Source: Crambe crambe (taxonomy: Eukaryota > Porifera > Demospongiae > Poecilosclerida > Crambeidae). From it: a DNA stretch of 64,000 nucleotides. Numbering within the stretch: position 1 is the stretch's first letter; each line of letters opens with the position of its first letter. The notes below the pieces were generated by a model, which did no database searches, had not been told where the DNA came from, and saw nothing but the letters and a program-made list of their open reading frames with translations. Of this stretch, positions 18,557 to 63,426 are shown piece after piece. Made by a program: the position numbers and the translations under genes. Location of the stretch: assembly GCA_963924555.1 (NCBI GenBank), contig OZ004590.1, forward strand, positions 682,001 through 746,000, in the 5' to 3' direction.

Positions 18557-18647
18557 TTACTTGTATGATTTGGGAGGGCGTGGTGGCGCTACAGGCACAT
18601 TGGAAGGTGTACTTTTAGGAGGGCGGGGAGGAGCACTTGGGGGAGAC
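18557..18647 (-). CDS. Receptor gene 1, exon 16: C-terminal APPRPPKS repeats and stop
   Basis: Encodes 29 residues with two copies of APPRPPKS-type PxxP motifs and ends SYK, then TAA at 18559-18557. The sequence just past the stop reads TAATAAAAG, so an AATAAA hexamer overlaps the stop; the cleavage site was not identified. Confidence 0.83.
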
Positions 18648-21600
18648 CTGAAATACAACAGTCATTAGTCATTACATAATACACCATACCAGGACCAGGG
18701 TTAGGGTTAGGGATTTTAGTGAAGACACGGAAATGTTCACTTGCACAAAGCTTTTACGTCCCTAGAAACTAGACTGACATTATCTTCCCCAACTGGTGAT
18801 GACTGGTCACACACACAAACACTATTATAATATGCTCCATTAAGCAATCGGTCCTGACCAGTTAGAGCAGCAAATAAATGAAAATATTATTTTCCCTTTA
18901 AAAAAACCTCAAACACACACACACACACAACAGGTGTGCAGAGATTGTCCAATCATTATAGATTTAACATTAGGTTCATAATAATATTATCTGAGAGTGC
19001 GACTGTCACATTGTATATACCAAGCTCATAAAACACCACATCCACATCAGGTGTCCACATATTGTACATACATTGCAGTTTATATTCCTCTGACAGACAG
19101 TTGCTTGAGATGTCACTACAAATACTATGTGATATCATAATGCCTTTATTTTGATGATTGGTTCTCTACTGTGAAAATTTAAATACTAAAGCCTCTGATA
19201 CCCAAGAAGGAAAGCTCCAAGTAATACATACATGCATACTAGAAGAATTTCTTTCTTTTAAAAAAAGTCCCAACAAGTGCAACGAGGTAGCTATCAAAGA
19301 AGGCTGAGGAACTAACTGGTCACATGATTGAAACTAGAGCAATCATATTTCATGCACTGCAGCATAATGTATCATTGTAGAAATAAAATCTTGGAAGGAG
19401 CTAAAGTATTTATCTTGTCAATGTGTTGAAATTCACTGTTGATTAAAGCTCAATTCAAATTGTCTTGCGTAGAAGAAGGAATGCTTTTTAATGAAAAAGC
19501 AATATCCATACGTACAGATTGCTTAAGCCCTAGATGAACATGCAATGGTAAACTTGCCATTGGGTAATCTAAACAATCATTGACATCGTATCAGCTAGAA
19601 ACTGTTACTTGCATCATAGTCATAATGTTATCTTACAGGGGAAGTGCACTTACTACTATGACCTTTGAACTGTGTTATATACTACTGCACAGCTGCATAG
19701 TAACGAACATTGGAGGTTACGTACATGTCTAACTTTCTTGGAACAGGTGGAGGGTCAAGAGTGAGAGGAACATCAGGGGGTATCAGCAACTCTGTGTCAT
19801 CTGTCTTGGGAGGCAAAGGAGGAGGAGATTCGGATTTAGGAGCCTTTGAAACTGGTACACTGTTATCAACCGCAATGGGCAAATCACCTACACACACAAC
19901 ACACACAGTCATACATTAATAACATTCATCAGACTGAACTGTACATCAGTCCAATAAGTTAGGTACGTAATTCACTATTCAATGCTCACTGGTATGACCT
20001 TCCAATATAATTGTCCACCACTAGCTAACGTAAAAGTATTATTTGTACAACTTGTTATCAGCTGAAAGGGACTGGTGAAAGTTCTGTAATTGTAAGTTTC
20101 ATTACAGTTCTAATGCTGTAACGAATTGCACACTTCAGTAAATATCTCAATGGAACATTGTTATCTGCAGACAGAAATAGCCCCTCATTACACATGTTGG
20201 CATGGGACACTATTACCAGCACAAGAGTAACCATGACTACTGGATCTGACCTGTGATGTAGACTTTCATGATGTCGTCAGCAAGTTTCTTGTGACCAATA
20301 TCACTCAATCCATGTGCCACTTCCTTCCAAGTGGGGGCGGGGTCTCGGGAGTGGATGTGGAACCAATAGTCGGTCATCTCCACTAGTTTACTATAGTCAT
20401 CACACTGCATGTCCTTCACCTCATCCAGCACTTGAGTCGGCACTCCAATGGCTCCTCCATACGCATACCAGTCAGGAATCACTTCACGCACTTGAATCAA
20501 CATCATGTTCAGATCCAGAGAACCATCTGAGAGACACACACACACAGAGAGATAATTAATAACACCTCATTAATATTACATTATGTATGTATGTATGTAT
20601 GTATGTATGTATGTATGTATGTAGGTGTTAATGATGTTATTAGTTCATCAAAATAATCATACAACATTATCACATTGAGAGCTCCTTCAGTGTCCCATCA
20701 AAGGTGGAATTCATAGCAGCTTCATTTCACAAGTCTACTTTTATTATACTGAAAGATTCTGCTGCTAACAAGTGGTCAACTTGCCATTCAGTAATGCATA
20801 ATGTACATACCATTCCCATCAGTAGACTGAAATCCTATTAGATACATGTTAGTGCTAGGGATGGGATCATATGAAAAGACTTTCAGCAGTCATTAGCTTA
20901 TGTCAGCAATGGAGTGGAAGCACTACCTACACACTAACTCATTGTGTCCACACAAACACAAATGCTATATTTAGTCATGCACATCTGGACAACACACACA
21001 CCACAGACTAGAGACATCATGACTCCCCAGGAAGACTACTAGTTCTCACAGCAAGTAGTATGAACACCTAAACCTCAGCTATCACCCCCAACACCCTTCC
21101 AGGATTCTCCACTATCATTATACTGCTATGAAACATACTGTCTCACATCTCTGAATCAATTTAGCTCAGTGAGTTTGTATACACTGATAATAATCCCACC
21201 TGATATTTAGAGTCTTTTATTTACTCTCTTACTAACCATAATTCACTTATGCAGTCCAGAGGTTCACCCTATTAGGAGTCTAAGGGCTGTTATGTTGCAA
21301 TATAATAACCACCTCCACCCTAGCAACAGCCAAAGACAGCAAAGGCATTAAAGATCAAAAGATGCCCATGGATATCATATTAAGCTGGGAGGTTTCCACT
21401 AAAGTCTTTCAAACGGGGTGTCACCCCTCAACTCTGGCAAGTGAAAGTATCGAGGGGTGTATGTAATGAAGGAGATGTAACAGGTATAAAGACACACAGT
21501 AAAGCAATGTGGAAAAACCAGCTCTATATACGTATGCATATACAAATAAGGTAAGGAGTGGTCAGCTGTTCTACACAGTACACATTGTAGTAATGTCAGG

Positions 21601-21687
21601 CTAACCGTTCTGTGTGAGGGACAAGTCTTCCTCATCAAAGGACAAACATTGTGTTGCTTGACATTACTACATACTACATGTACACCC

Positions 21688-21744
<57 letters not shown>

Positions 21745-23940
21745 AGGAATGATGGAGGTACCTACGCTCTTCAAAGATTGTGTCAACTATACACTCGAAT
21801 AGCTTATTTGAAAATTGGAGCTAGCTATGGAACCTGCCCTAGGCCTAGGTATGGAGGTATGGAGCCTGCCCTGGATATGGAGCCAGCACTAGGTATGGAA
21901 CCTGCCCCAGGTATGGAGCCTGCCCCGGGTATGGTATGGAGCCTACCCCAGGTATGGAGCCTGCCCTAGGTATGGAGCCTGCCCTAGGTATGGAACCTGC
22001 CCCAGGTATGGAGCTCAGAGCATATATGTAACATCCATGGCTGAAAAGTAGCAGGAGTGATATTAATAAAGTGAGGAGATTTCCCCTAATTCCAGCTATG
22101 AATAGTAAACTGAAGAACAAGAATAATGGGAAATATCATACGCACATACAAATCATATAGCTACCACTGAGCACCCAGGTACACATTTCCAGCTGGATGG
22201 ACTGGTGGCAATGGATATTCACTACCTGATGAAAAGAATGTTACTGGTGGGACTCAATCTCACAGTCTCCCACTTACAAGCCCAGAGTGCAAACCACATA
22301 CATACATACATACATACAATACATACATACATAGGTAGGTAGGTACCTGGATCCTTAGGGGGAGGGGGAGGAGCCTTGGTAGCATTGGCAGGAGATAGTG
22401 TGATGGTTCCAGTGATGTCGGAGTAGACCACTGGTTCATTGATAGGAGGGGACACTGGAAGTCCAGCTGGCCTCTTCCTGGGACCTAAATCAGCATACAC
22501 CAAACCACCTGTGCTGTTCTGCATATCATTGTTGGGGGGAGGATAACCACCACCATTCTGAAACAATCAAGAGAGATAGATATATTAACGCTCATGCATG
22601 GACCAGTGACTACACAACACAGTTGATCAGTCCATGTCCACATGCACAGTCACATATGTAGGTACCAGTCCATGTCCACATGCACACAATCAATCGTAGG
22701 TACCAGTCCATGTCCACATGCACAGTCACATTATGTAGGTACCAGTCCATGTCCACATGCACAGTCACATTATGTAGATACCTTGTTTTGAATGACACTG
22801 TATTGTTCACCAGTCTCCACCTGCACAGTGGAGGCATTACTGCCAGGAGGATAGGCACCACCAGTCTGAAATAAATAAATTTATTTATGCTCAAGGATCA
22901 ATGCAGTGACTAGAAATGTATCCACATATGTACATACCTCAGTTTGTAAAACGCTGTACTGCTCACTAGTTTCAGTCTGAATGGAGAAGAAATCAGTCAT
23001 CACACCACAATTTACTAATGACAGCTACACACACTAGCTGTTAGCTACACATTCACACATGTAACAGCACACCACACAGCCAATGGTGGATATAGACCAC
23101 ACTACACAGCCAATGGTGGATATAGAGCACACTACACAGCCAATGGTGAATCGAGCACTACACAGCCAAAGGTGGATACGTTTTAATTGGACAACTCCTC
23201 TCACTTCCGATATGAAACGTTTTATCATATGTACAACCACGACTACTGTCCGTTTAGATAAAAGTTTAAATACCACAGCCCAGATAAGTAGCTTCAGTAA
23301 CCACAAGTAGGACCAAACTCTCACTATGCTCCTGAATCTTCAGCTCATGGAATGTCCACTAGCTACAGAATGGTTGTAAATCATGGACACTCCAACCAAG
23401 GATTTCTCCACTCAAAGAAGTACTTCAGTAAGTCAGTATTGCAAGGTTATTTGTCTGTAATAATGGAATTGCTCAATGTGGACATTTTGGGAGTAGAGAG
23501 GGTGAGAGTAGATGGGAGTAGAGAGGAGGGTGGGAGTAGAGAAGAGGGTGGGAGTAGAGAGGGAGCAGAGAGGGTGAGAAATGTTATTAGTCAGTCATTT
23601 ACACGACACAACTTAAGGTGAGTCATTTCAAAGTTTGACAGTTCTACTGAATGATGAAGAGACTATGTTGCCATGTAGCTATGTGGTAGGTTGATATTCA
23701 TAGTTATGACGATGATCAATGTGGAGTGTTTAGCTGGGGAGATAAAGATATCTAGACACATTCACGATAGACTAAATATCATTCATACTCCTTGCACAAT
23801 AGTGGACAGGCTATGAATTTCATTTAACACGCACAAAAGTACAAATCATGATTAGCAAGTAGGACACCCAATAGATAAGATTAACCTATCCCACATTGAG
23901 AACTATAATATAATGTAAGTGATAATACACATGTGGTTCC

Positions 23941-23971
<31 letters not shown>

Positions 23972-25609
23972 AAACACAACAAAAACTACAGGATTATCAT
24001 GTGATAATTAGGGGGTGCCAAATCTTTATCATATATTTTTTATATTATATGCATGTGATATAGTGATAAAGATCTGGCTGCTTACAACCCGATATAAAAT
24101 TATCACATGGAAAAATCTAGTCCTGAACCAAGTTTGATAATACCAATACACAGCACTGTATTATAGTAGCTGGTGGACGAAAGGAAGTATTAGAGTCTTG
24201 GTATCTTGGATCGATGTATTGTATGCATTATTGTGTGCATGCTCTGTAAGCACTAAGTCAGAGTTCTGCCCAGGATTCTTGAGTTTATTTTGCCATAAGA
24301 CTATATTAGGGGTGCTCAAAACCATCACTGTGTATGCCTAAAGTTACTACAACTAAGTAGTGGTGGCCAAAAATAGCCAAGTGGTGGCCACTGTCGACCA
24401 GTGTGGGCAGAACCATGCTAAGTGTGTGGAAGCTGAGATTTAACTCATCTGTAAAATCTTTACTCAACAATGCCCCAATGTACGAGTCAGTCCCTACACC
24501 TACTCAGTTCCTACACCTCCAGTCATATTATGTTACGTTGCCTCTGCACTATGATGTCCACTAGTCTGTGTGCACGTTATGGGTACATAGGTCACTGACT
24601 CATGGATCACAGTGACCCATATCTCCTTTAAGCTTTAAAATTGTGCCATCATTATTGGCATTCAGTTAACAAAACTCTGGATAGTGTAGATCACTAAACT
24701 TAGCTCACAATACACCTGTTGAGACAGATGGAATTTAAATAACATCCCACCAAGGAATGAATAACTAGGGACAAAATTTTTCCACACTACGTATTATGCA
24801 AGCACTACTACATGCCAAGATATACATGTGGGGACTATTATTGATTGTACTAAGTTAATATGGGTGTGGTCAACAATGCCAGTAGGATCAAGTTTGATGC
24901 CGTTCTTATCTGAGGAGGTTGAGACAAAGAGAGAGAGGTATATATTAACATACGTATGGAGATATGGAGCATTCCTATCTCAGGTGGTAGCTAAGGGTCT
25001 CAGGAGGTAGCTAAGGGTCTCTGTATACATAACATGCATGGATGGGCTATTTCTCAAAAACAAGTGCTTGTGATGTCTATCAACAAATAAACGAGGACTG
25101 TGTCAACTAACATTGTTGACACAAGATAACACTCCACCTGAGCTGAGTGGCTCTCTCAGTTGTTTTGATAATCCCTCCTGCATGCAAGGGTACCTACACT
25201 ATGCATACATGTATGATATGTATATACTTAATTGTTTCCACATTTGATTCGTAAATAAGGGATAGCAACTCGGAACATGATAAACCTTCAATGAGCACAT
25301 ACGAGTTCAGCTTTCTCACACTAGATATCACATTTGTTTAATTCCACCCCTCACTGGTCACACTACACAGTAACTGTCTAACATACACCTACATACGTAT
25401 CAGAGAGAGTGTTAGGACTCTCTATATACATATCAGAGAGTGCTTATATGTAGGGATGGCAGGTCAAAGGTCATAAGATTCTATACCAAGCTACTAATTA
25501 AATCTCATGACTTGTAGAAACAGTCCCAATGCACATCAAGACATCATTAAAGGTGTGTATCAAATGAACAAATGAATCTATATTGTCTCTCTCTGTGAGG
25601 AATCAAGAG

Positions 25610-25672
<63 letters not shown>

Positions 25673-28600
25673 GAGGATGGAGTGGAAGCTAGAGGTATAC
25701 AGCAGATGCTACTGGACAGACACTTACTTGCACATTCTTCCGAGGAGGTTTTTTGCCATCCACTCGAATTTCACTGTATTCTTCAAGCACTGCAACTGGT
25801 TGCTATAAGTGAGTAAACATCATAATAATGTCAATATTAACCACACGCAACTGTACACAGTTTAAAATGACACTTTCCTTCACTATGAAAGAGTCTAGTT
25901 ACGTATACAGATGTTTAACTAACTTCTTTCTTTTCCTTCTCTGTCATGCCATGTTGCAGAGTGCTGTACTCCTCCTGAAACATGTACATGTGAGAGTCAA
26001 CACTTGCACCTTTATATGGACCTATGTACAGAGCTACATAGGTAGCTGTGACCTACGTACAGTGGGGGGCTGGGAGGGTCTGGGGACCTGCTGGATGTGA
26101 GTAGTGGTACTGTAGAGCACAGGAGCCACTGGAGCATTGTGAGTGGTCCTGTTGTACTCACCCATTGGAACCTACGTAGGTATGAAATCACAAATACCAT
26201 CACTCCATGCATGCAGTGTGAACACTCTAACACTTAGCTAATTACCTCATCTTCATAATTGTTTATCCCATTTCTATAAAATGAAATAAGAGTAATGTAA
26301 AAACATAATGCAAGTCTATCAGCTGTAAACAAGGACTCTGAAGTGAGTATCAATGTGAATAAGAAGAATGTTTATCTAGCAGGATATTGCAGTCTCGTGT
26401 ACCAATAAATATCTCATGAAACAATGTCAGAAGATTGTGGTTTACACATGATAACATGCAAGTTTCTGTGGTCTTATTCCTCATGGATAACTACCCCTGA
26501 AAAACTGTTATATACGTACATAATGTAGCTAAGAAACCTTAATTACCAGAGTCAAACTAATGCATAGGCCATAGATTCACTACTGCATGAAACACAAATA
26601 TAACTTACGTTCTCTTCTTTGGCTTCTCACCTATAGAAGATGAATAATGTGAAGTCAGCTGCATCATTAGCTACATAGAAAACTTACTCATTTTCCTTCT
26701 TAAACAGATGACCATGATGATGATCAGGACTACTGTTATGACAGCAATTATGCCTCCAGCAACACCTCCAGCTATTGCTCCTGTATTATTTGGTCCTATA
26801 ACAGATGGTGAAATAGATGTTCCAGAACTGGTATTCTGAGGATCATCTGCTCAAAGACATAATATAGCACCAAGTTAAAGGTGAGCAGACCTTCATTGTC
26901 CATTAATTAGATTGGAATGGTGAATGATAAGTACAGATCTGCGTATGCTGCCCTGGTCTTGTTGCAGGTGCCAAGAATCCCTGCTTAAAAATATTTCAGT
27001 GGAGTGAGCACAGTGAACCCCACACTAGGGAGTCGAGTGAGAGAGTGTTACAGTATCATATGTAAGTTTTAACATTCAATTGTGATGACTTTGGGTAAAC
27101 TGAACATGCACACTCGCCCCACAATGCTGGTAATTATGCCCCCTCAATCATTGGACTGGTGACTCTTGAGTGTATAGCATATTTATGTGTGGTCTCTACA
27201 CATCCACATAATCACACATGTACAATATCTAAACAGATCATCAACTGTGATAAAATTTCCCATTCTAACCTAGCATACATGGCTCTGTCCCCTTCTATTA
27301 AATGATGTGACTGATACTGTTATAGTAAACTTCTACAGTCCACCAGTCCGTTTCTGACAACCTTGATAAGTAATTTTACTGTATAGGGCTATGTTGAACA
27401 AACTTTTGTACATATTATTGTTATGGGTGTTTCATTATGCTCCCATACTTAAAAGTACAGCCTCTGTGCAAGTCTATTCCTGTTCCTTCAAAGTCAGGAG
27501 CTGTATACGTAGGTACTCATATTTTATACCACTTCTTATTGTCTATTGTTCATGAATGCTATACAAGTCTCTGTTGAATTTGAACCTGCATACTATACCA
27601 GAAAATGTCGGCCCAACACAGTCACTAATTATATAGGGAAACAGCTGGTTCAATAAAAGAACAGTAGGAGGCTTCCTTACAAAGTCTATAAAACAGGTCT
27701 GTTGGTCCAATAAATAATAGCAGGAAAAGGAAACAGATCTACTGGTACAATAAAGAATAGAAACTTCCCATTCAAAAGATTTATGTTCATAAAAGGAAAA
27801 GTACAATGGTACTACAGCATTAAATAATTATGTTGAAATGCTACATTCCTGCACATATGTATCAGTGTGTAGAATATACTTCTAAGCTAACTCACAAGAC
27901 ATCCTATTAACTACTGTTTTCATATCCAGTCTATAGAGAGAGTTACCATTTATGGATTTACACTTGGAGCATAATCATGCACACAATTTACACTGCTCTT
28001 AGTCTTTGTACCTTGGTGTTAAGGGAAAAACAGCTAAAGAGAAGTCAAAGTTTTATGCCGACTAGTTATGTAGATGAGAGCAAGTTATAGTGATATAGGC
28101 GCACATGCACCATATGTGTGTGCATGTAGCACTTTGTTGCTTTCATTCATATTGTCTTCTTATTGGTACATTATATCTCAAGGGACAGTATTAAAGGAGG
28201 CATCTACGTACCTGTATCAGCATCATTTGTGGTAGCACTGGCATTCATGCACATGTGTGTGGCAGGATCTGGACTCCAGTGACCTTCTGCAGTGCAGTCA
28301 GTTCTGATGATGGTAGTGGGACTCAAACCATCACCACAAGTGAAGTTGAAAGAAGAACCTTCAAATGTAGCAGTGAAGTTATCAACCACCACCACACCAT
28401 CAGCAAACACAGGTAACCCACACTCTCCTGCAAAGCAAAAATTATAATTATTGGGGGCCCACACTACACTAGGAGGACTCCCAGACAACCATCAGATAAA
28501 ACTAAACATGTGCTCATCCCTATTATTATAGCAGTGACAATACCAATGGAAAAGATTAAAAAGACCATTAATACCTTTGCACATGACTCCATTGACATCT

Positions 28601-31600
28601 GGTATCCATACACCTTCAACACATGTAGCTCTGTTCACACCAACCAGTGACTGGTTTGAGTCATTACATGAGAATGAGATGACAGTGCCCTCAGGGGCTG
28701 ATGCCACACCCACCACATTAGGTACCAGTCTCACATGAGGACTGATGGAAGGGAAGACACAGCGAGCTACACGAAAGTTAAATGACTACTCATTCAACCA
28801 ACATTTGCTACAATGACTTACTGTGGTTTAGTGAGGTGGATGCAGTGTAATTACCACCACAACGGTTGATGGCCCCTACAGTGATGTTGTACTGGGTGTT
28901 GAAGGGGACATTGGGTATGGTTATGCTAGTCCTTGAAGCATTGTTATATGGAATAGGTGGACTGATGGTAATATTGACATAGTTGACACCATCCTGTGGT
29001 GTCCAGGATACATTAATGGCTGTGATACTAGTCCTCCCAAACTCCAGATCTGAAGTGTCAGGATATGTCAGATCAAATGGTGTAGGGTCATCTGCACAAA
29101 AGAGATCAGTCACGTACAATTCACTCACCCACACACTAGTCATGCTAGTGCATGGGAAAAAAGTACTGCCACATCATGTGATATATCAGGTGGTTATTCA
29201 TGCATGGACTGATACGATCATGCAGTTCACATTTCTGATAAAGAGTTATTCTTATAATCAGAGCCTCTCCAGCGATACTCTTCTAGAACAAGTAGCTAGA
29301 TAATGTCTAGAGCATTATTCATTATTCCATATTAGACTCTGACTGCATCTTTATGTAGGGATGGCAGGTCACAGGTCATAATACTGGAAATCCTTCTTGC
29401 TTTTGTGTCCTTACTATAACTATAGGTTCTCACAACACTACTATATCTACACAGAAGAGGGGAGAATGTATAGAGAATTCAAAACTCATTTGCAGATTTC
29501 AGAATGACTCTTGTTCAGACAGCGATTTCTAAAATCACTGTTTTCATCTGGTCGTTCATTATCTTTCACGTCATTATTTCAGAAATGGTTCATTCAAATG
29601 TTTGTAAAGGAAAAAATAATTATTCTAAATAAAAAAGAGAAGAAGGGATGGCTGTGTGCGGTTCAAAAAAGTTTAGCAACAAGAGAGTGAACTTCAGTCA
29701 AGTAACCCCTTGCCCATTATCAATATTACCAAACTACGAGCTAACTATTCCTACTTCACTCCCTTTATACCATCTTGGCCTATCATGGGAGTGAAGTAGA
29801 TCTTGGCCTATCATGGGAGTGAAGTAGGAATAGTTAGCTCATAGTTTGGTAATATTGGTGAAGGGTAAGGGGTTACTTGACTGAAGTTCACTCCCTTGTT
29901 GCTTTTGAACCGCACACACTTCTCCTTTTTATTTAGAATAAATATTTTTATTTAGAATATATATATATTTTTTTTCCTTTACTTGTATAATATAAGGGAA
30001 AAAGCATTTCGTGAAATGAAAAAAGATGTAGGGATGACCACTGCTCAAAAAAGTAAGGAAACAAGAAGGATGGAAATGGGATCAATCTTCGTTCTGTATA
30101 TCCAGCCAACAATCCCTACATATACGTACATTACTGCACTATAATCTGAAGCTATCCTACGTATATGTAGGGATTGTTGGCTGGATATACAGAACGAAGA
30201 TTGATCCCATTTCCATCCTTCTTGTTTTCTTACTTTTTTGAGCAGTGGTCATCCCTACACCTTTTTTCATTTCACAAAATGCTTTTTCCCTTACTTGTTC
30301 CTGGTCTCTTTTATGGTTTTAGCTATGTATAGAGTTCATTCTTCTATGTCTATGCAGGGACAGATGGAAGAAGAATAGTTCTCCAATAGCATAGCAACGA
30401 GTCAAGGTGTTGTGTTATTGTTGAGCTATACTTGGAGATCGAAGATGCTGAAATAGAGTCTACCGGTAGATGGATTGGTGAATCTAAAATCCCCGAGTTG
30501 ATACAGTAGTCTATGATCTAGCTAGCTAGAGATAGCTGAGTAATATTATAATTTAATATTATAATTTCAAATAATTGGATATCAAATACATGCGCATGCA
30601 TATTATAGAAAAGATGGCTTCCACTAATTGCTCCGTAGTGTCTCCTTTTTCATCGACTCTTTCGAGGATCAACGAGTAGAAAAGATCGTAGTTGGTAGAA
30701 TTTGGAGTGGATTTATCCAGAAATCATACCTGTAGCTTGAGTGGTTCGAGAGATATGGTTGTCTAAGAATAATAATAATAATAATAGAGAAGAAGAAGAA
30801 TCCAGCGATTTACCTGCCTGCCGTATTTCTGAAATGGTAAGCTCCCTGGTCCTGAAACTTGGTCTGCACATTGTAGTAGGCTCTAGTAGGCTGGATAATC
30901 ATTCACAGTAGCTTTTGTTAGGTCTAAGTGGGGGAACTAGAATTTCACTTTTGTATTAGTCTATAGGCAGCGCGTGCGGCCGTCCGAGTCATCCCTACAT
31001 AGAGAGTGCTACCGTGCTCTCTGATATCACCACTATCCAGTTGGTACACCATAGAGAGGGGCTCACTTCACATAATCTGAGCTAGATTGTTTTCTACAGC
31101 CTTTTGTCACAGAGGCCTAGGCTTATCTAAGTGGATTGTAAGCGCTTGGCTTATCTAAGTACTTGTGGTAAGCATTAATTTTACTCTCTGACAGCAATAT
31201 GCTACTTTAATTGCTCAATGTTATAGAGGCTCTAGGCTTATCTTTGTTACACATAAACTCAATAGAAAAATCTTCTAAAGAGTTGAAGCACTAAATAATA
31301 CTTGCCTGCTCACTTGCTGTCAAATGTTGCACATTGCCCTAGTAGTGTAGATTTACACTATACATATACACTAAGAGGATCTGAATCACTGCAGGTCACA
31401 CTAACTAGGAATCGCTTGTAAAGTGTTGGGCGAGTGAAGCAATGTTGATAATGTGAAGTTATGTCCTCATGCACATACACAATTTTGTTGTAAATTATTG
31501 TGTGTGACATGCAGTGGGAGGGGCACATGCATTTCTTTCGTCCAGCCCAGTTCTTATCTCTTTCTCTGTCTCCTTTTTTCTCTTTTTAGCCTTTGGTGGC

Positions 31601-34194
31601 TTCATACTATAGTAGCTAATCATCAAATTCACAAGATTAGTTTTTTCTAATCAACATTAAAACGAGTCTTTGTTGTTGCTTAGCAATTGGTTCAGCGCAT
31701 GCGCAATGATAATTTTCTGACGTACGTATATATATATATCTCGAGTTCCCATTGACATAACCAGAGAGTGGCTCGCTTTGCTCGCCAATTACTACTTCTT
31801 ACCTGCAAGTGTCAGCACTGAAGTTTCCCTCCTTGCAACTCCTGATATGAGTGATGCACACTCTACCAATGTTCCATTGAGGTTCTGACTGACACTCACA
31901 GTCACAGTGGCCACTAGTTCCAGAGGTGAAGATGTGTAAGAAGTGACTCTGAATATCAACACACCATCTTCTGTCCTCAGCTCCATATTATCATTGCGTA
32001 TTCTTATTGCTGTGTAGTTAATTGTGGAAGTAAAAATATTCCAAGTCACAGATGTTTGATTAGCAGTGCAAGTAAACACCACTTGTTCTCCATCACAAGC
32101 AACAACAGAGGGAGGAGATAAGGTCAGTGCACCTGAATACCAAAAAAAACATACATATGTACAGTGAAACCTGCCTTAAAGATCACCTGTATCCAGAGAC
32201 CACCCTTCTATAAAGACCACTTGGTTGGGTTCTAAAAAGTGCCATTTCAATTGATTTTGACCTCCATACAGAGACCACCTCCCTTTTTTGTGGCCCAGAG
32301 GTGGTCGCTGTAGGGCACTGTATTTCAAGTTGACAAGCACAGTTAATTTAGAACATAGTAGAAAGCAATCTGATGGGTTAGCGAGCACTATATGGCTTAA
32401 TGCCCTCTACCAAACTTAGAAAACCTCAAACAGGTTACTAGCCTTTGCTCTCAGGACGTTACTGCATGGTGTGAAGCTTCCCACAGCTTACAACTTTAAG
32501 TGTGACATGGTGTAATGTGATTGTTCACTGGATATACAAAACAATTTCCTTCTACCCTAGTTTGTTTACTTTCTTGGGCAATTGTCATGTCAAGTGTTCA
32601 GCTATATCCAACTTAAGTATATTATAGGAGGTTGAGGATGCAGATGAATCTGTAATACCAGTAGATGGACTGGTGAATCTAAAATCCCTGAGTTAACCTC
32701 AATGTAACCCTAGCTGTGGAGATAAGAAACAACTTTGTAAAGCACAAAAGACAAGGCTGCAGTTCAAAGGCATAATGGGTTCTTCTATCTACATCTACTA
32801 TCATTGAGTGGACATGGAAATATAATTTTTTCGAATACCTGGGTATCGGCAAGCAGGCATTCTTCTCATTATTAATTCTTCCTAGATAACGATATTCCAC
32901 AGTAATAAATCACTCTTATTGAAAGAGTCTATGCAAATAGAGACACGGCAGGACACCATACTATAATACAAAGTTAATTATTGGAAGCCATTTTGATAAT
33001 GTGCATATGCATGTTATTAATATCCAAGCATTCTTTTTTTTTCTGTCGAAATAACCAGTAACTATTTTAGTGTGGTGGGATTAACCCCCACTGTACAATG
33101 CTAGGTGTTGGTCCCCTCTGTACACTGTACAATGCTAGGCGTTGGTTCTGAGGATTGCATGTTCTTATTAGTGTCTAATTTTGGACACACATGCAGAGAA
33201 AATTCTACCAAGTTTTTGAAGTCATTCACAGTATTGTAGCAGCAAATTTTTTTTGTGACATAAAATAATTAGGAGTTAGGCTCATGGTTTAAGTAGACTG
33301 CAAGCTGAAACTTGTGGCAGTAAGTAAGGTAACCTGGGGTAATCCCGGACACTGGCTCCTTATTCCGAAGAGAAGAAAGCTAACGGGCTTTAACCTGTAA
33401 CTTAAAACAACTACTTCTGCTTTATCCCTCCACTGACTCTTGAAACCCAGTTCTGTATCATTCGTTATCATTTGCACTGATAACGACTACTGTAAAGTAG
33501 TGGAAACATTTGTGTGTTTTTTTTTTAAATATTTGACTAGTGTATAGTTTGAATATACAATGATGTCTAATGCAATTCCTAGTCACACAGGACTTTACAA
33601 AGACTACATTAGCTAATAGCATGAATCAGTTTTTCTTGTACACATCTTAATACTATATATCTATGCCAATGGCCTAATGACTATTGTGACGTTATGAGGT
33701 GGGGGAGGGAGGAGGGGTCAGAACATAATGTCACAATGACGTTATGTTTTCCAAAAAATAGTTTGGAGACACCCCCTTACTCCAGCCAGGAATAAGAGCA
33801 GCTTTTGTAAAAAAGTGTCCAGAATTACTCCATTTTACCTTACTTCTTTAAAATTATACTTCTGGTTAGTTAAGAATCTCGCCCAGAATTAGGCATCATC
33901 CTAAATTAGGCACCCTTACCTTTAACTAGACAATTAGAACATGTTTAAAGTATTAAACCCCCATGATCATCATGAAAGTGGTCAAAGATTCAAAGTTTAC
34001 CCAGTAGATACCATATAGCAAGGATCAACTTGATTCCCTGTACAATCATCCAATCATGGTTTAGTAAGTATGATGGGCTTGCTAAGCATAATCCTTAGCT
34101 ACCTAGCATTTGCCAAGCTATTTAACTCACCTGCCGACAATAGAGTACTGAATGTATAGAAAATTCCTAGCAACAGAGATGAATAGGAGCCCAT
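18557..34194 (-). CDS. Ig-FN3-Sushi-Sushi-TM receptor with six Tyr motifs and a DEATH domain (16 exons, complete)
   Basis: Exons in transcript order: 34194-34131, 32132-31803, 29091-28822, 28766-28575, 28427-28212, 26846-26688, 26630-26609, 26273-26246, 25974-25924, 25802-25728, 22976-22938, 22865-22782, 22557-22347, 20526-20251, 19887-19725, 18647-18557. All boundaries are AG/GT and every codon phase agrees; total 2271 nt, 756 residues plus stop. Layout by residue: signal peptide 1-21, Ig-like 22-131, FN3 132-221, CCP 222-285, CCP 286-357, membrane helix about 381-406, short basic stretch, Tyr motifs at 430, 453, 476, 504, 531 and 555, DEATH about 581-672, Pro-rich tail to 756. It should be a type I plasma-membrane receptor: ligand binding outside; SH2, SH3 and DEATH partners inside. 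The ligand is unknown. The model is strongly supported by phase agreement; alternative exon use in the tail is likely but not shown. Confidence 0.9.
19725..19887 (-). CDS. Receptor gene 1, exon 15: proline-rich SH3-ligand segment
   Basis: 163 nt, phase 1 in and phase 2 out. Encodes a low-complexity tail with SPPPLPPKTDD and DPPPVPRKLD, both PxxP-type SH3 ligand patterns with flanking basic residues. The donor is GTACGT. Confidence 0.82.
20251..20526 (-). CDS. Receptor gene 1, exon 14: DEATH domain
   Basis: 92 codons, phase 1 at both ends. The pattern of a DEATH six-helix fold is visible: IPDWYAYGGAIGVP (helix 1-2 with the W..G..LG-like turn), then VLDEVKDM, MTDYWFHIHSRDPAPTWKEV (the W......TW..L signature), GLSDIGHKKLADDIM. 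DEATH domains make homotypic contacts with adaptor or NLR-type proteins. Confidence 0.88.
20583..20623 (+). repeat. (TATG)n microsatellite
   Basis: About ten tetranucleotide units, just upstream (gene sense) of the DEATH exon. Confidence 0.93.
21693..21741 (+). repeat. (CA)n microsatellite in an intron of receptor gene 1
   Basis: About 25 CA units. Confidence 0.95.
21845..22015 (+). repeat. 18-bp minisatellite GGTATGGAGCCTGCCCTA
   Basis: About nine imperfect copies in an intron of receptor gene 1. The repeated open frames on both strands are by-products. Confidence 0.88.
22160..22300 (-). repeat. SINE-2 fragment in an intron of receptor gene 1
   Basis: Minus strand: GTGGTTTGCACTCTGGGCTT and AGATTGAGTCCCACC, a tRNA-like head with a B-box-like site, then CCAGTCCATCCAGCTGG. 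Related heads lie at 48850-48905 (minus) and 52300-52355 (plus). Confidence 0.6.
22347..22557 (-). CDS. Receptor gene 1, exon 13: two ITIM-type motifs and proline stretch
   Basis: 70 codons plus one base (phase 0 in, phase 1 out). Contains LVYADL and VVYSDI, both fitting the ITIM consensus [SIVL]xYxx[IVL], 24 residues apart. It ends in a proline run (APPPPPKDP). Such motifs bind SH2 phosphatases in vertebrate receptors; the sponge partners are unknown. Confidence 0.87.
22625..22781 (-). repeat. 39-bp tandem repeat next to the exon 12 donor
   Basis: Repeats of GTACCTACATAATGTGACTG-type units (minus strand), starting at the splice donor GTATCTACATAATGTG of exon 12. Each unit carries a donor-like GGTACCTAC. 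Confidence 0.8.
22782..22865 (-). CDS. Receptor gene 1, exon 12: Tyr cassette EQYSVI
   Basis: 28 codons, phase 0 at both ends. Starts TGGAYPPGSN and ends GEQYSVIQNK. The start matches NGGGYPPPNN of exon 13 and the end matches exon 11, which suggests a duplication or fusion history for the cassettes. The donor is followed directly by a 39-bp tandem repeat in the intron. Confidence 0.8.
22938..22976 (-). CDS. Receptor gene 1, exon 11: Tyr cassette EQYSVL
   Basis: 13 codons, phase 0 at both ends; encodes TETSEQYSVLQTE. Nearly the whole exon is the motif. It shares EQYSV.Q with exon 12, so the two probably arose by exon duplication. Confidence 0.8.
23065..23172 (+). repeat. 31-bp minisatellite, four copies
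   Basis: Unit CACACTACACAGCCAATGGT plus GGATATAGAG, in an intron of receptor gene 1. Confidence 0.85.
23490..23580 (+). repeat. GA-rich tandem repeat (GGGAGTAGAGAGGA)
   Basis: Several short GGGAGTAGAGA-type units within an intron of receptor gene 1. Confidence 0.8.
23990..24112. repeat. AT-rich hairpin in an intron of receptor gene 1
   Basis: TATCATGTGATAATTA and AATTATCACATGG, with inner ATCTTTATCAT and GTGATAAAGAT, form a nested inverted repeat. Follows a C run at 23940-23961. Confidence 0.5.
25609..25671 (+). repeat. (GT)n microsatellite in an intron of receptor gene 1
   Basis: About 30 GT units, 57 bp downstream (gene sense) of exon 10. Confidence 0.95.
25728..25802 (-). CDS. Receptor gene 1, exon 10: Tyr cassette EEYSEI
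   Basis: 25 codons, phase 0 at both ends, donor GTAAGT. Encodes AVLEEYSEIRVDG and then a basic, Pro-containing stretch (GKKPPRKN). The Tyr lies 23 residues after that of exon 9. Confidence 0.8.
25924..25974 (-). CDS. Receptor gene 1, exon 9: Tyr cassette EEYSTL
   Basis: 17 codons, phase 0 at both ends, donor GTTAGT. Encodes EEYSTLQHG followed by a charged tail. Together with exon 8 the context is EDEEEYSTL, which resembles an acidic hemITAM-like YxxL context. Confidence 0.8.
26246..26273 (-). CDS. Receptor gene 1, exon 8: acidic microexon NGINNYEDE
   Basis: 28 nt, phase 2 in and phase 0 out. Encodes NGINNYEDE, placing an acidic cluster just before the first Tyr cassette exon. From here the introns switch from phase 1 to phase 0. 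Confidence 0.8.
26609..26630 (-). CDS. Receptor gene 1, exon 7: 22-nt juxtamembrane microexon
   Basis: Encodes the basic stretch EKPKKRT. The acceptor ends in TATAG, the donor is GTAAGT, and the exon joins phase 1 to phase 2. Its size and phase fit exactly between the TM exon and exon 8. Confidence 0.8.
26688..26846 (-). CDS. Receptor gene 1, exon 6: stalk and transmembrane helix
   Basis: 53 codons, phase 1 at both ends. A polar stalk is followed by a Gly/Ala/Val/Ile-rich helix (core GGIIAVITVVLIIIMVICL) and the stop-transfer signal RRK. The helix covers roughly residues 381-406 and puts the following exons in the cytoplasm. Confidence 0.9.
26847..28211 (-). other. Intron 5 of receptor gene 1
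   Basis: Between the second CCP exon and the TM exon. No repeat structure or coding segment stands out. Confidence 0.6.
28212..28427 (-). CDS. Receptor gene 1, exon 5: Sushi/CCP domain 2
   Basis: 72 codons, phase 1 at both ends. Begins GECGLPVFADG; has four cysteines (ECG, NFTCGDG, RTDCTAEG, HMCMN) and the GHWSPDP tryptophan segment. Followed by a Ser/Thr/Asn-rich stalk (NASATTNDADTG). Confidence 0.88.
28575..28766 (-). CDS. Receptor gene 1, exon 4: Sushi/CCP domain 1
   Basis: 64 codons, phase 1 at both ends. Four cysteines in CCP spacing (TRCVFPS, SFSCND, ATCVEG, VMCK) with the GVWIPDV segment that holds the CCP tryptophan before the last Cys. One exon per module, as usual for shuffled CCP domains. 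Confidence 0.87.
28822..29091 (-). CDS. Receptor gene 1, exon 3: fibronectin type III domain
   Basis: 90 codons, phase 1 at both ends. FN3 signatures: a hydrophobic-Trp strand (INVSWTPQDG), and the strand pair NVPFNTQYNITVGAINRCG matching the usual L.P.T.Y...V.A. pattern. NIT, NAS and NVS sequons fit an extracellular location. The conserved Cys of INRCG matches VSRCD in the neighbour's FN3 exon. Confidence 0.88.
29612..29990. mobile_element. Foldback FB-2 copy in intron 2 of receptor gene 1
   Basis: Same arms as FB-2 at 367-665 (GATGGCTGTGTGCGG, CAATATTACCAAACTACGAG), with a 30-bp internal duplication around 29775-29825. It abuts FB-4 at 29993. Confidence 0.78.
29993..31026 (-). mobile_element. 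Composite repeat, arm A (FB-4 plus 720-bp body) in intron 2 of gene 1
   Basis: 29993-30300 is foldback FB-4 (arms with GTAGGGATTGTTGGCTGG, ends AAGCATTTCGTGAAATG). 30300-31026 is a body with no coding capacity, ending in an AGAGAGTGCTACC-type hairpin. The unit matches 43926-45157 in the opposite orientation. Confidence 0.82.
31803..32132 (-). CDS. Receptor gene 1, exon 2: Ig-like domain
   Basis: 110 codons, phase 1 at both ends. Shows an Ig-like core: Cys34 in VVACDGEQ, Cys43 in FTCTAN, Trp52 in SVTWN and Cys113 in LVECAS, with several N-glycosylation sequons (NQT, NYT, NGT). The pattern AC....E..vxxC.A is shared with exon 2 of the divergent neighbour at 55361-55657, which supports paralogy. 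Confidence 0.85.
32159..32321. mobile_element. Mariner/pogo-like MITE in intron 1 of receptor gene 1
   Basis: Left end TACAGTGAAACCTGCC, right end (complement) TACAGTGCCCTACAGCGACC, with TA at both borders and repeated GACCACC blocks inside. TACAGTG starts and TA targets fit Tc1/mariner-type elements. Confidence 0.55.
33322..33846. mobile_element. 525-bp MITE in intron 1 of receptor gene 1
   Basis: Terminal repeats AAGTAAGGTAACCTGGGGTA and, complemented from the right end, AAGTAAGGTAAAATGGAGTA, each followed by a GGACAC. No coding capacity. Confidence 0.7.
34131..34194 (-). CDS. Receptor gene 1, exon 1: start codon and signal peptide
   Basis: Encodes 21 residues beginning MGSYSSLLLGIF, a hydrophobic leader typical of a secretory signal peptide, plus one base of the next codon (phase 1). 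The donor is GTGAGT. An in-frame stop lies 12 nt upstream of the ATG, which fixes this start. Confidence 0.88.
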
Positions 34195-43100: not shown

Positions 43101-46100
43101 TGAAGCCTGAACGGCTGAAAGTTGTATCAGCGATTTTCAAGGGCGATGTGTTCGCAATTCTACCTACTGGCTTCGGAAAATTATTCAACACGCATGTATA
43201 TTGCAATTTAAATTATTTTTGAGAGAGCGCGCGGGTGTCACAAGTAGTTTATGCTAGAGCTCCCAGACCACTTTTCTTCCCCGTCCCAAAAAAAAAGAAG
43301 AAAAGCTGGGCTGGCGACGCCAGACTAGCTAATGCATGCGCAGTGGCCTACTCAATTTTCAAATGCAAGTGAAATCAGCAGTATGTAGGCCTGGGGCATT
43401 TGGAGTGTAGACCTAGATATACAAGTGAGCACAGGAAATTTCTTTAAATAAAAAAGGGATAGCCTAAAATCTGCAGCCTCGTATGAAAACAATCCCTAAA
43501 TTTGCATCCACTGCCTAGTTGTAAATATAGGGATTGTTTTCATACAAGGCTGCAGTACATTATACAACCTAGCTAGATTTTAGGCTATCCTTTTTATTTA
43601 GAAGAATTTTTTTGCGCTCACTTGTTTCTATCCTTTTTCTTAGTACTTGAACTTGAAAGTAAGTGTGGCAGTATTGATCGTCACTTCAACTGAGAGTATG
43701 CAGTGATTATTCATGAGTCTACAGTACAGTACTATACAAAGCCAGCTCTACTGTCTACATAAACCTTATCTTTTTCTTTTGTAGGTACATACACAGTCAG
43801 TGGTTGAAGAATTTGTTTAGCTATTTAAGTTTTGTCTATTATTTAATATCAAACTTTACAGCAACAGCAATGTAGCTAAATGACATGTGCATGGCATGGT
43901 GAAGTGAGCTGACTACACTGGCTATAATCAGAGAGTGCGGTAGCACTCTCTATGTAGGGATGACTTGGACGGCCACGTGTGCCGCCTATAGACTAATACA
44001 AAAGTGAAATTCTAGTTCCCCCACTTAGACCTAACAAAAGCTACCAGGGTGTCATCTGAGGGGGGTGCAGGGGAAGCTTCCCCCCCCCCCCCAAACAGCT
44101 CAACTGACGCAGCTTCACCCCCAAATTATTGCCAAATTTTAGGACAAAAATTACTTCTAAGTAGGATCCAAGCATTTTAAAAATACTTCTAAGTATTATT
44201 TTAAGCATTTTTGGCTTGGGAGCCCTCCCGCACCCCCACTACGCATTCCATACGCTTCCCCTCCAAGGTGGAATTCCTAGATGAAACCCTGGCTACTGTG
44301 AATGATTATCCAGCCTACTACAATGTGCAGACCAAGTTTCAGGACCAGGGAGCTTACCGTTTCAGAAATACGGCAAGCAGGTAAATCGCTGGATTCTTCT
44401 TCTTCTCTGTTATTATTATTCTTCTTCTTAGACAACCATATCTCTCGAACCACTCAAGCTACAGCTATGATTTCTGGATAAATCCACTCCAAATTCTACC
44501 AACTACGATCTTTTCTACTCATTGATCCTCGAAAGAGTCGATGAAAAAAGAGACACCGCACTCGACTAATTCAAATAGTGGAAGCCATCTTTTCCATAAT
44601 ACGCATGCGCATGTATTTGATATCCAATTATTCGAAATTATAATATTACTCAGCTGTCTCTAGCTAGCTAGCTAGATAATGATCATAGACTACTGTATCA
44701 ACTCGGGGATTTTAGATTCACCAATCGGTAGACTCTATTTCAGCATCTTTGACCTCCAAGTATAGCTCAACAATAACACAACACCTCAACTCGTTGCTTT
44801 GGAGAACTATTCTTCTTTCATCTGTCCCTGCATACACATAGAAAAATGAACTCTATACATAGCTAAAACATAGAAGAGAGGAAAAAAGATCAGGAACAAG
44901 TAAGGGGAAAAGCATTTCGTGAAATGAAAAAAGATGCCACTGCTCAAGAAAGTAAGGAAACAAGAATGATGGAAATGGGATCAATCTTTGTTCTGTATAT
45001 CCAGCCAACAACCCCTACATATACCCGACGTATATGTAGGGGTTGTTGGCTGGATATACAGAACAAAGATTGATCCCATTTCTTGTTTCCTTACTTTTTT
45101 GAGCCAGTGGTCATCTCTACATCTTTTTCATTTCACGAAATGCTTTTTCCCTTATTATTATTATCTATATAATAATGTGCTTGTCAGTGCGTACATACGT
45201 ACACAGTAAGTGCATCACAGTTAAAAATTGAGAAGGAAAAAAAACTTGGTTGAGTTGGGACTCAAGCCCGCATCCTTTATGCTTGGCACACAAGCACACT
45301 GCCACACGACTACAACAGTAACACTGTAATTAATTTATTTTTAAATGATTTTATACATCTTGCTGATGTTATTAGTATGCATAGACATGATTACATATGT
45401 GCATGCTCAAATATAAATATAATGGCGCGAAATTTCGGCTTAGAGGCATAAGTGAAGTTCAGGTGGAAACTAGAGGCACAAAAGTGGGAGAGCACGCTTC
45501 ACAGAAGATGAAAAATCAAGGGAGAGAGAGGCAGAAGTGAACTTCAGGTGGAAACTAGAAGAGAAAGGGAGAGGTAGAAAAGATGGAGAGCATGCTTCAC
45601 AGAAGATGAAAGATCGAGAGAGAGGCAAAAAGTTGGAGAGCATATACAGTCAGAGAGAGATAGAGACGTCAAAGAGTATGCTTGACGGAAGATGAAAGAG
45701 CAAGAGAAAGAGAAAGGCACAGAATGTGGGGAGAACAAGAGGCAAAAAAGTTGGAGAGCATGCTTCACAGAAGATGAAAGATCAAGGGAGAGAAAAGTTG
45801 GAGATAGCATGCAAGGGAGAGCTAAAGAGAGAGGCATAAGTGAAGTTCAGGTGGAAACTAGAGGCACAAAAGTGGGAGAGCACGCTTCACAGAAGATGAA
45901 AGATCAAGGAAGAGAGAGGCAGAAGTGAACTTCAGGTGGAAACTAGAAGAGAAAGGGAGATGCAGAAAAGATGGAGAGCATGCTTCACAGAAGATGAAAG
46001 ATCAAGAGAGAGAGAGGCAAAAAGTTGGAGAGCATATACAGTCAGAGAGAGATAGAGAAGTCAAAGAGTATGCTTGACGGAAGATGAAAGAGCAAGAGAA

Positions 46101-63264: not shown

Positions 63265-63426
63265 GTAAGTCACCATTTGACATTATTATCTAAGGTAGTA
63301 TTATGTAGTACATGTCAGTTGTACTAGAGCCTATTCACTGAATTAAGGATCAACGCCCCTATAAAAATAATTTTTTTAAATGTCCATATCTTCATTCTAA
63401 TGATGTACTTAGTTACAATTTTACAC

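Follow-up and report, generated by a model that had tools for sequence, protein, structure and literature searches.

Results

A receptor-type gene in the window

We analysed a 64,000-nucleotide stretch of DNA, hereafter the window, located at G000:C13:682001-746000 of the Crambe crambe genome (143.14 Mb, 119 contigs), in which, judged by length, C13 is chromosome 10 and C3 is chromosome 2. The minus strand carries a gene for which the best model, built from the sequence and from comparison with relatives, has 17 exons and 793 residues. The residues run in the order signal peptide, Ig, FN3, two CCP modules, transmembrane (TM) helix, six Yxx[LI] motifs, DEATH domain and proline-rich tail:

Exon 1, 34131..34194, minus strand: start codon and signal peptide (MGSYSSLLLGIFYTFSTLLSAG), predicted from sequence only; ATG, hydrophobic stretch, GTGAGT donor, phase 1
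Exon 2, 31803..32132, minus strand: V-like Ig domain (C-W-C); its 11-row profile matches antibody chains in the PDB; C21, W30 and C91 invariant
Exon 3, 28822..29091, minus strand: FN3; Pfam fn3 E 0.0012, below cut-off; one of 24 near-complete FN3 exons on C13
Exon 4, 28575..28766, minus strand: putative CCP/Sushi 1, from cysteine pattern and paralogues; no Pfam match by itself
Exon 5, 28212..28427, minus strand: CCP/Sushi 2; Pfam Sushi above cut-off, residues 302-340
Exon 6, 26688..26846, minus strand: stalk and transmembrane helix; AIAGGVAGGI also in H. panicea P0001
Exon 7, 26609..26630, minus strand: juxtamembrane, 22 nt; a 22-nt counterpart is readable on C3
Exon 8, 26246..26273, minus strand: 28 nt, joined in frame
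Exon 9, 26061..26171, minus strand: YNRTTHNAPV...; absent from the first-pass annotation; like a C3 paralogue and P0001
Exon 10, 25924..25974, minus strand: EEYSTLQ motif; H. panicea counterpart EYSALQH
Exon 11, 25728..25802, minus strand: EEYSEI motif
Exon 12, 22938..22976, minus strand: EQYSVL motif
Exon 13, 22782..22865, minus strand: EQYSVI motif
Exon 14, 22347..22557, minus strand: strict ITIM-type LVYADL and VVYSDI; two C3 copies read LIYADL and VVYSDI
Exon 15, 20251..20526, minus strand: DEATH domain, containing a further YSKL
Exon 16, 19725..19887, minus strand: proline-rich tail with PxxP; C-tail similar to H. panicea
Exon 17, 18557..18647, minus strand: RPPK-type proline-rich C-terminus and stop; RPPKS common to P0001

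The sixteen exons listed by the first-pass annotation lie on this strand where it had placed them, and their in-frame join encodes 756 residues followed by a stop codon, with AG and GT flanking the exons at all internal junctions, continuous phase, and phase 1-1 for every exon encoding an extracellular module. That count missed one exon, 26061-26171 (111 nt, phase 0-0), which is in frame and has canonical splice sites. The exon resembles its counterpart in a C3 paralogue (shuffle p 0.0002) and in the Halichondria panicea protein P0001 (YNRTTHNAPVA and YNRITHNNPAS, respectively; p 0.0001), and in these two comparisons none of 263 overlapping open intronic windows scores as high; compared with the form in P0023/P0025, no significant similarity was found (p 0.23). 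Because the exon is in frame and conserved in both the C3 paralogue and P0001, we favour the 793-residue model. Alternative use of this cassette is possible.

Support for the ectodomain and DEATH assignments

We compared the domains proposed at first pass with Pfam and the PDB, using both the single protein and profiles that include its relatives. For the single protein, one Sushi match exceeds the Pfam cut-off (23.7 vs 20.7 bits), fn3 falls below it (19.5 vs 25 bits), Ig_3 is weak (E 0.44) and Death is not listed. The assignment of the putative CCP1 rests on its cysteine pattern, on paralogues and on a weak match to CD55 across both CCPs (E 0.001). The 11-row Ig profile matches 1425 distinct PDB sequences at E<=1, and the 60 listed all carry antibody-chain names; the best match has E 3.8e-4, with no stretch passing alone, the next has 0.0019, and many cover the N-terminal half only. 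Pfam Ig models match at most 4 of the 11 Ig rows (best E 0.007). The C-W-C pattern together with the profile places the V-like domain in the Ig superfamily, although single-sequence Pfam scores stay below cut-off.

Pfam Death matches six of seven family rows (best E 1.7e-6), compared with E 0.035 for the window DEATH exon alone, and exceeds its cut-off in three of the five DEATH-tailed H. panicea proteins scanned (P0003, P0004 and P0014, not P0001 and P0002). By profile the domain belongs to the DEATH superfamily, its ten best PDB matches all being FADD at modest E values of 0.003-0.02. With relatives included, the Ig and DEATH assignments are thus supported.

Tyrosine motifs in the cytoplasmic tail

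Between the TM helix and the DEATH domain, six of nine tyrosines in the 16-exon model lie in Yxx[LI] motifs (shuffle p 0.0003), or six of eleven when exon 9 is included (p 0.0024). The strict ITIM consensus is [ILVS]xYxx[LIV]. The first-pass annotation had described these motifs as ITIM- or ITAM-type: two of the six (LVYADL and VVYSDI) fit the strict ITIM consensus and the remaining four fail it, while the ITAM reading was rejected because adjacent motifs are 23-28 residues apart and ITAM spacing does not occur. Each of eight H. panicea DEATH tails carries 2-6 Yxx[LIV] motifs, with 2-4 of strict ITIM type (p 0.0001-0.023).

The accompanying statement that such motifs and DEATH domains usually sit in different vertebrate receptor classes was overdrawn, since Fas and UNC5 join a DEATH domain, tyrosine phosphorylation and SHP phosphatases (PMC4778973, PMC6080411, in the sections available). 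According to these sections, Fas tyrosines set the signalling outcome via Src kinases and SHP-1 (PMC4778973) and UNC5 phosphotyrosine recruits SHP2 (PMC6080411); an excerpt of a further report associates TRAIL-R with SHP-1 (PMC10967194).

A tandem family with two tail classes in C. crambe

An Ig-to-TM query gave 118 matches (100 of 274 candidates scored), all located at C13:0.318-0.947 Mb and C3:4.67-5.13 Mb. The Ig exon gave 38 matches (69 of 69 candidates scored), and by our own tally three of these are fragments, whereas the Ig exons matched across 84 or more of the 111 residues number 27 on C13 and 8 on C3. The FN3 exon gave 47 (50 of 50 scored), of which 15 are remnants of broken copies; the rest are near-complete, 24 lying on C13 and 8 on C3. 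Genes clustered on C13 and C3 with ectodomains that the tree described below places close together are a feature of paired receptors.

On C13, the window FN3 exon shares 86-93% identity with the 23 further FN3 exons, and the window Ig exon 39-94% with the 26 further Ig exons. Mean pS, for 7-9 C13 exons per module chosen by similarity to the query, is 0.312 for Ig, 0.201 for CCP1, 0.109 for CCP2 and 0.056 for FN3; FN3 looks homogenised, and Ig appears to have remained old and divergent. No positive selection on Ig was found by simply counting pN/pS in Ig exons picked by query similarity, 7 from C13 and 4 from C3. The C13 ratios are 0.72 (Ig), 0.70 (CCP1), 0.69 (CCP2) and 0.57 (FN3), and pN exceeds pS in 1/21, 6/36, 7/21 and 10/28 pairs, respectively.

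Two kinds of tail follow these ectodomains. The short (S) tail consists of a TM helix followed by YE[DA][VI] and NVAYGH tyrosine motifs, and adjoins family exons in the C13 pieces L021, L025, L026 and L030 and at four places on C3. Genome-wide, it gave 71 matches (84 of 84 candidates scored), of which 40, by our own tally, are free of stops and cover residues 7-86 or more (26 on C13, 8 on C3, 5 on C17 and a distant one on C5), counted as tails alone and, on C13, not paired gene by gene to ectodomains. The remaining matches, some of them on C14 and C21, are pieces or stop-bearing copies. With 26 near-complete copies on C13 and 8 on C3, the S tail is the commoner form in the family. In the window gene itself, no hidden short-tail exon was found; the best match in the window and its flank (E 0.086) lies outside the gene. 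S tails also recur at C17:6.17-6.57 Mb, C14:0.69-0.85 Mb and C21:5.21 Mb, where no Ig or FN3 exon matches; they are perhaps attached to other ectodomains.

The long (D) tail carries the six Yxx[LI] motifs, the DEATH domain and PxxP/RPPK motifs. DEATH exons of at least 60% identity comprise three full copies on C13 (window, 461k and 352k), three on C3 and one partial copy on each (150 of 224 candidates scored). Only the window copy reads as an intact DEATH-tailed gene, and therefore the D arm may be small in C. crambe.

Additional full-length DEATH-tailed genes on C13 at 352k, 461k and 572k were considered and rejected, as these places align with the DEATH exon, proline exons and nearby introns of the window gene; no Ig, FN3 or cytoplasmic family exon was found near them with all candidates scored. 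We read these loci (L011, L010 and L017, respectively) as truncated 3' duplicates of the window gene. On C3, DEATH cassettes keep CCP-TM-YxxL-DEATH-PxxP exons in the same order within ~4 kb, and no Ig exon of their own was found among the 69 of 69 Ig candidates scored. FN3 is broken similarly in the cassettes at 4709k and 4837k, CCP2 is out of frame at 4877k and has lost a cysteine at 4838k, the DEATH exon at 4993k is matched in part only, and the 4712k copy was seen in part. The C3 cassettes may be decayed, or the short-tailed gene immediately upstream may use them as alternative 3' cassettes. A distant relative lies at C5:8573089-8574676 (L052/L015), where a CCP-like piece (38%) is found ~1.2 kb from a 33% identical DEATH exon.

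The same architecture and both tail classes in Halichondria panicea

A search for the architecture in other sponges, as proposed at first pass, recovered it in H. panicea protein models. P0001, isoform X5 of LOC135347907, reads Ig-FN3-CCP3-TM-YxxL-DEATH-PxxP in the NCBI gene model and aligns with the window protein over 566 columns (E 5e-33). The Ig-to-DEATH join is supported by annotation in these predicted proteins, and the first-pass claim of an Ig-FN3-CCP ectodomain, tyrosine motifs and DEATH on one chain holds; because the same order recurs there, we treat the window locus as one gene. LOC135347907 and its relatives, named uncharacterized or complement receptor-like by NCBI, have the same architecture and both tail classes, but differ in showing three Sushi matches in five of ten proteins scanned and in being only ~27-32% identical to the window protein.

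All 21 H. panicea clusters lie on one contig of 18,138,809 bases. Eight are DEATH-tailed (P0001-4, 14 and 23-25), including P0004 and P0014 with fewer modules and P0024 without its N-terminus; P0016 is of the DEATH type but truncated. The remaining twelve (P0005-13, 15, 17 and 18) have short tails, ten with ends like NTNQAYGPLGL and two (P0005 and P0017) ending in EIKH.

The segments of the D tail match separately and in order in P0001, P0023 and P0003, with E values, uncorrected for low complexity or composition, of 3e-6, 0.001 and 0.04 for the tyrosine region, 3e-16, 6e-16 and 9e-15 for DEATH, and 9e-13, 6e-13 and 4e-11 for the proline tail. The weak tyrosine-region similarity of P0003 counts against the interpretation that we favour below. 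S tails of the two species are similar in all three pairs compared (E 8e-10 to 9e-13). Judged by this similarity, both tail classes are homologous across the two species.

We built an ectodomain tree of 33 rows, comprising 13 Crambe sets and every H. panicea cluster except P0016 (20 of 21). Crambe rows span FN3 to CCP, and most H. panicea rows start at residue 101. A branch with 100/100 support separates the two species. Tail class requires nine changes on the tree, a raw count without a shuffle control: the window D ectodomain groups among short-tailed C13 ectodomains (95/86), and P0025 (D) pairs with P0018 (S) (99/80). Fourteen of the 30 inner branches stay open, and in three rows more than half of the columns are empty. 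Since ectodomains group by species and mix classes, either the tails predate the present ectodomain sets or ectodomains were swapped between classes. Class-mixed ectodomains on two tails judged homologous are the mark of paired receptors, and by motif the two tails on shared ectodomains include ITIM-type tyrosines (two strict motifs in D, ITIM-like ones in S).

Our comparison covers two sponge species; no family member beyond H. panicea was found in protein searches of limited sensitivity (~8000 candidates scored each), in which the other matches, P0019-P0022, carry Sushi and no Death in precomputed domains.

Candidate signalling partners

On the minus strand of C1, a DED match (54335-54484) adjoins a Death match (53929-54069) in the order of FADD, each covering part of its model, and on the minus strand of C18, SH2, SH2 and PTP matches follow in order from 6540942 down to 6539084. 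These FADD-like and SH2-SH2-phosphatase loci, both exon-level matches and not gene models, are possible partners of the receptors. A Death-family search returned at least 150 matches, all above cut-off (150 of 965 candidates scored), with the window exon not among the matches listed. Death domains are thus common in the C. crambe genome and many partners are possible, which we count against our preferred interpretation.

Discussion

From the exon structure, the two tail classes observed in two sponges and the ectodomains common to both classes within each species, we infer that the family works like paired receptors, and put a probability of roughly 0.55 on this reading as a whole, with the window gene as the DEATH-tailed member of such a tandem, single-pass recognition receptor family. 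In this system, S and D receptors would bind the same or similar ligands, whether self/allogeneic or microbial, via the variable Ig domain. Src-type kinases would phosphorylate the tail tyrosines, and SH2 proteins, e.g. an SHP-type phosphatase, would bind both S and D tails. Clustering of D receptors would recruit a FADD-like DEATH adaptor and lead to death or an NF-kB-type response, for which the S receptors and the tyrosines of the D receptor would set the threshold. We also count against this reading that no positive selection on Ig was found, that C. crambe has a single intact DEATH-tailed copy, that YxxL/I doubles as an endocytosis signal and that the comparison covers two species.

A serious competitor, to which we give somewhat less than even odds, is that these genes encode innate pattern-recognition or complement-type receptors, with no role in allorecognition; microbes or complement-like proteins would be bound through the Ig and CCP modules, and an NF-kB-type defence would be driven by DEATH. 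The CCP modules and the complement receptor-like names of several H. panicea relatives are in line with such a role, as is the response of Ig-, Sushi/FN3- and DEATH-bearing genes of other sponges to microbial patterns, described in the available part of one study (PMC6208332), but solved complement proteins are matched weakly (CD55, E 0.001).

It seems doubtful that the proteins are adhesion or dependence receptors of the UNC5 kind, with the DEATH tail acting in adhesion, migration or survival and tyrosine phosphorylation as feedback. UNC5 likewise has an Ig ectodomain, an SHP2-recruiting phosphotyrosine and a C-terminal DEATH domain, and occurs as a DEATH-less short isoform (PMC6080411, PMC10464613, in the passages available). 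Pfam SH3BP4_C is matched by three of the seven DEATH rows (best E 6e-4). However, TSP1, ZU5 and UPA were not found among Pfam families at E<=1, the sponge genes add FN3 and CCP modules in a large multigene family, and the 24 PDB matches of the DEATH profile at E<=1 are FADD, RIPK1, Fas and non-DEATH chains, with no UNC5 among them. A guidance receptor, moreover, would not usually come in dozens of tandem copies whose Ig exons diverge.

We also think it unlikely that the tyrosines are endocytosis signals and not phosphorylation sites, leaving DEATH as the sole signalling part. YxxL/I is an endocytosis and sorting pattern too, and four of the six motifs fail the strict ITIM consensus; yet the motifs are spread over five exons, two ITIM-type sites are kept in two C3 copies, and all eight H. 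panicea DEATH tails carry strict ITIM-type motifs. Finally, a gene-model artefact that fuses separate Ig-CCP and DEATH genes, which the first-pass annotation had named as a possible refutation, is very improbable: introns reach ~2.8 kb, 1.8 kb precedes the DEATH exon and no Ig exon was found for the DEATH cassettes on C3, but we reject it on the Ig-to-DEATH order of the H. panicea protein models, the compact CCP-to-PxxP order on C3 and the continuous phase.

Vertebrate paired receptors, which our preferred interpretation takes as its model, are defined to include KIR and LILR and resemble the sponge family in clustered genes, related ectodomains on two tail classes and ITIM-type tyrosines (PMC3533184, as far as the accessible text goes). 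They differ in that their second class carries a charged TM residue for an ITAM adaptor, whereas the second sponge class carries DEATH, with a TM segment without charge in the D receptor, and in that the sponge ectodomain is Ig-FN3-CCP. Alr receptors of Hydractinia have tyrosine-motif tails. Their family comprises 41 IgSF genes in the allorecognition complex (PMC11999971, in part) and likewise consists of clustered V-like Ig receptors of a non-bilaterian, to which the sponge genes add a DEATH tail and CCP modules. TNFR-type death receptors (Fas, TRAIL-R) combine TM, DEATH and YxxL motifs handled by SHP-1 (PMC4778973, in part); the sponge receptor differs in its Ig-FN3-CCP ectodomain, in six motifs outside DEATH and in TNFR repeats not being found by Pfam at E<=1. 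Sponge Ig-CARD and Ig-TIR genes each encode Ig together with a signalling domain, either a death-fold (CARD) or another kind, but use CARD or TIR instead of DEATH, and the accessible portion of their description mentions no CCP or tyrosine tail (PMC6208332). Sponge surveys, in the parts available, name Ig-TIR, Ig-CARD, FN3-Sushi, SRCR, NLR and DEATH-bearing genes, not Ig-FN3-CCP-DEATH (PMC8242945, PMC6208332, PMC12909245), and we found no earlier description of an Ig-FN3-CCP/DEATH paired family in the open-access literature as far as its text was accessible. Tyrosine control of a DEATH receptor is known; an Ig-FN3-CCP paired family with a DEATH class appears to be new.

The family missed at first pass and its short-tailed class turn one odd receptor into a paired-receptor-like system, a candidate for self/non-self or immune sensing in an early animal lineage. 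To our knowledge, the genes behind sponge graft recognition are not settled. H. panicea belongs to the order Suberitida. C. crambe belongs to Poecilosclerida (PMC12166358, in part), so that a multigene Ig receptor complex with signalling tails, chromosomally placed, is now available in two demosponges of different orders and is open to genotyping. Should the family indeed follow paired logic, then pairing one recognition domain with two kinds of tail arose outside vertebrates, DEATH replacing ITAM adaptors. It is a long shot that the C13 and C3 clusters form a sponge histocompatibility complex, in which Ig would read self, S tails would convey tolerance via SHP-type phosphatases and D receptors would kill or wall off a mismatch; if true, an inhibitory/DEATH paired-receptor logic exists far outside vertebrates.

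Other features of the window

A second receptor-type gene on the plus strand has an Ig-like exon at 55333-55713 without a Pfam match and an FN3 exon at 62922-63290 (Pfam 3e-9), and its relatives lie inside and beside the C3 cluster. Between these two exons are reverse-transcriptase ORFs, then QRICH1 and integrase-like ORFs (57537-59249 and 60990-62091). A repeat with inverted copies at 29600-30970, in the intron between Ig and FN3 of the window gene, is matched by L047 and L017, which also match 44-45 kb and 49 kb of the window. A purine-rich tandem array occupies 45447-47145 (446-base unit, 3.1 copies, 98% matches), and GC skew is 0.44 at 46001-48000.
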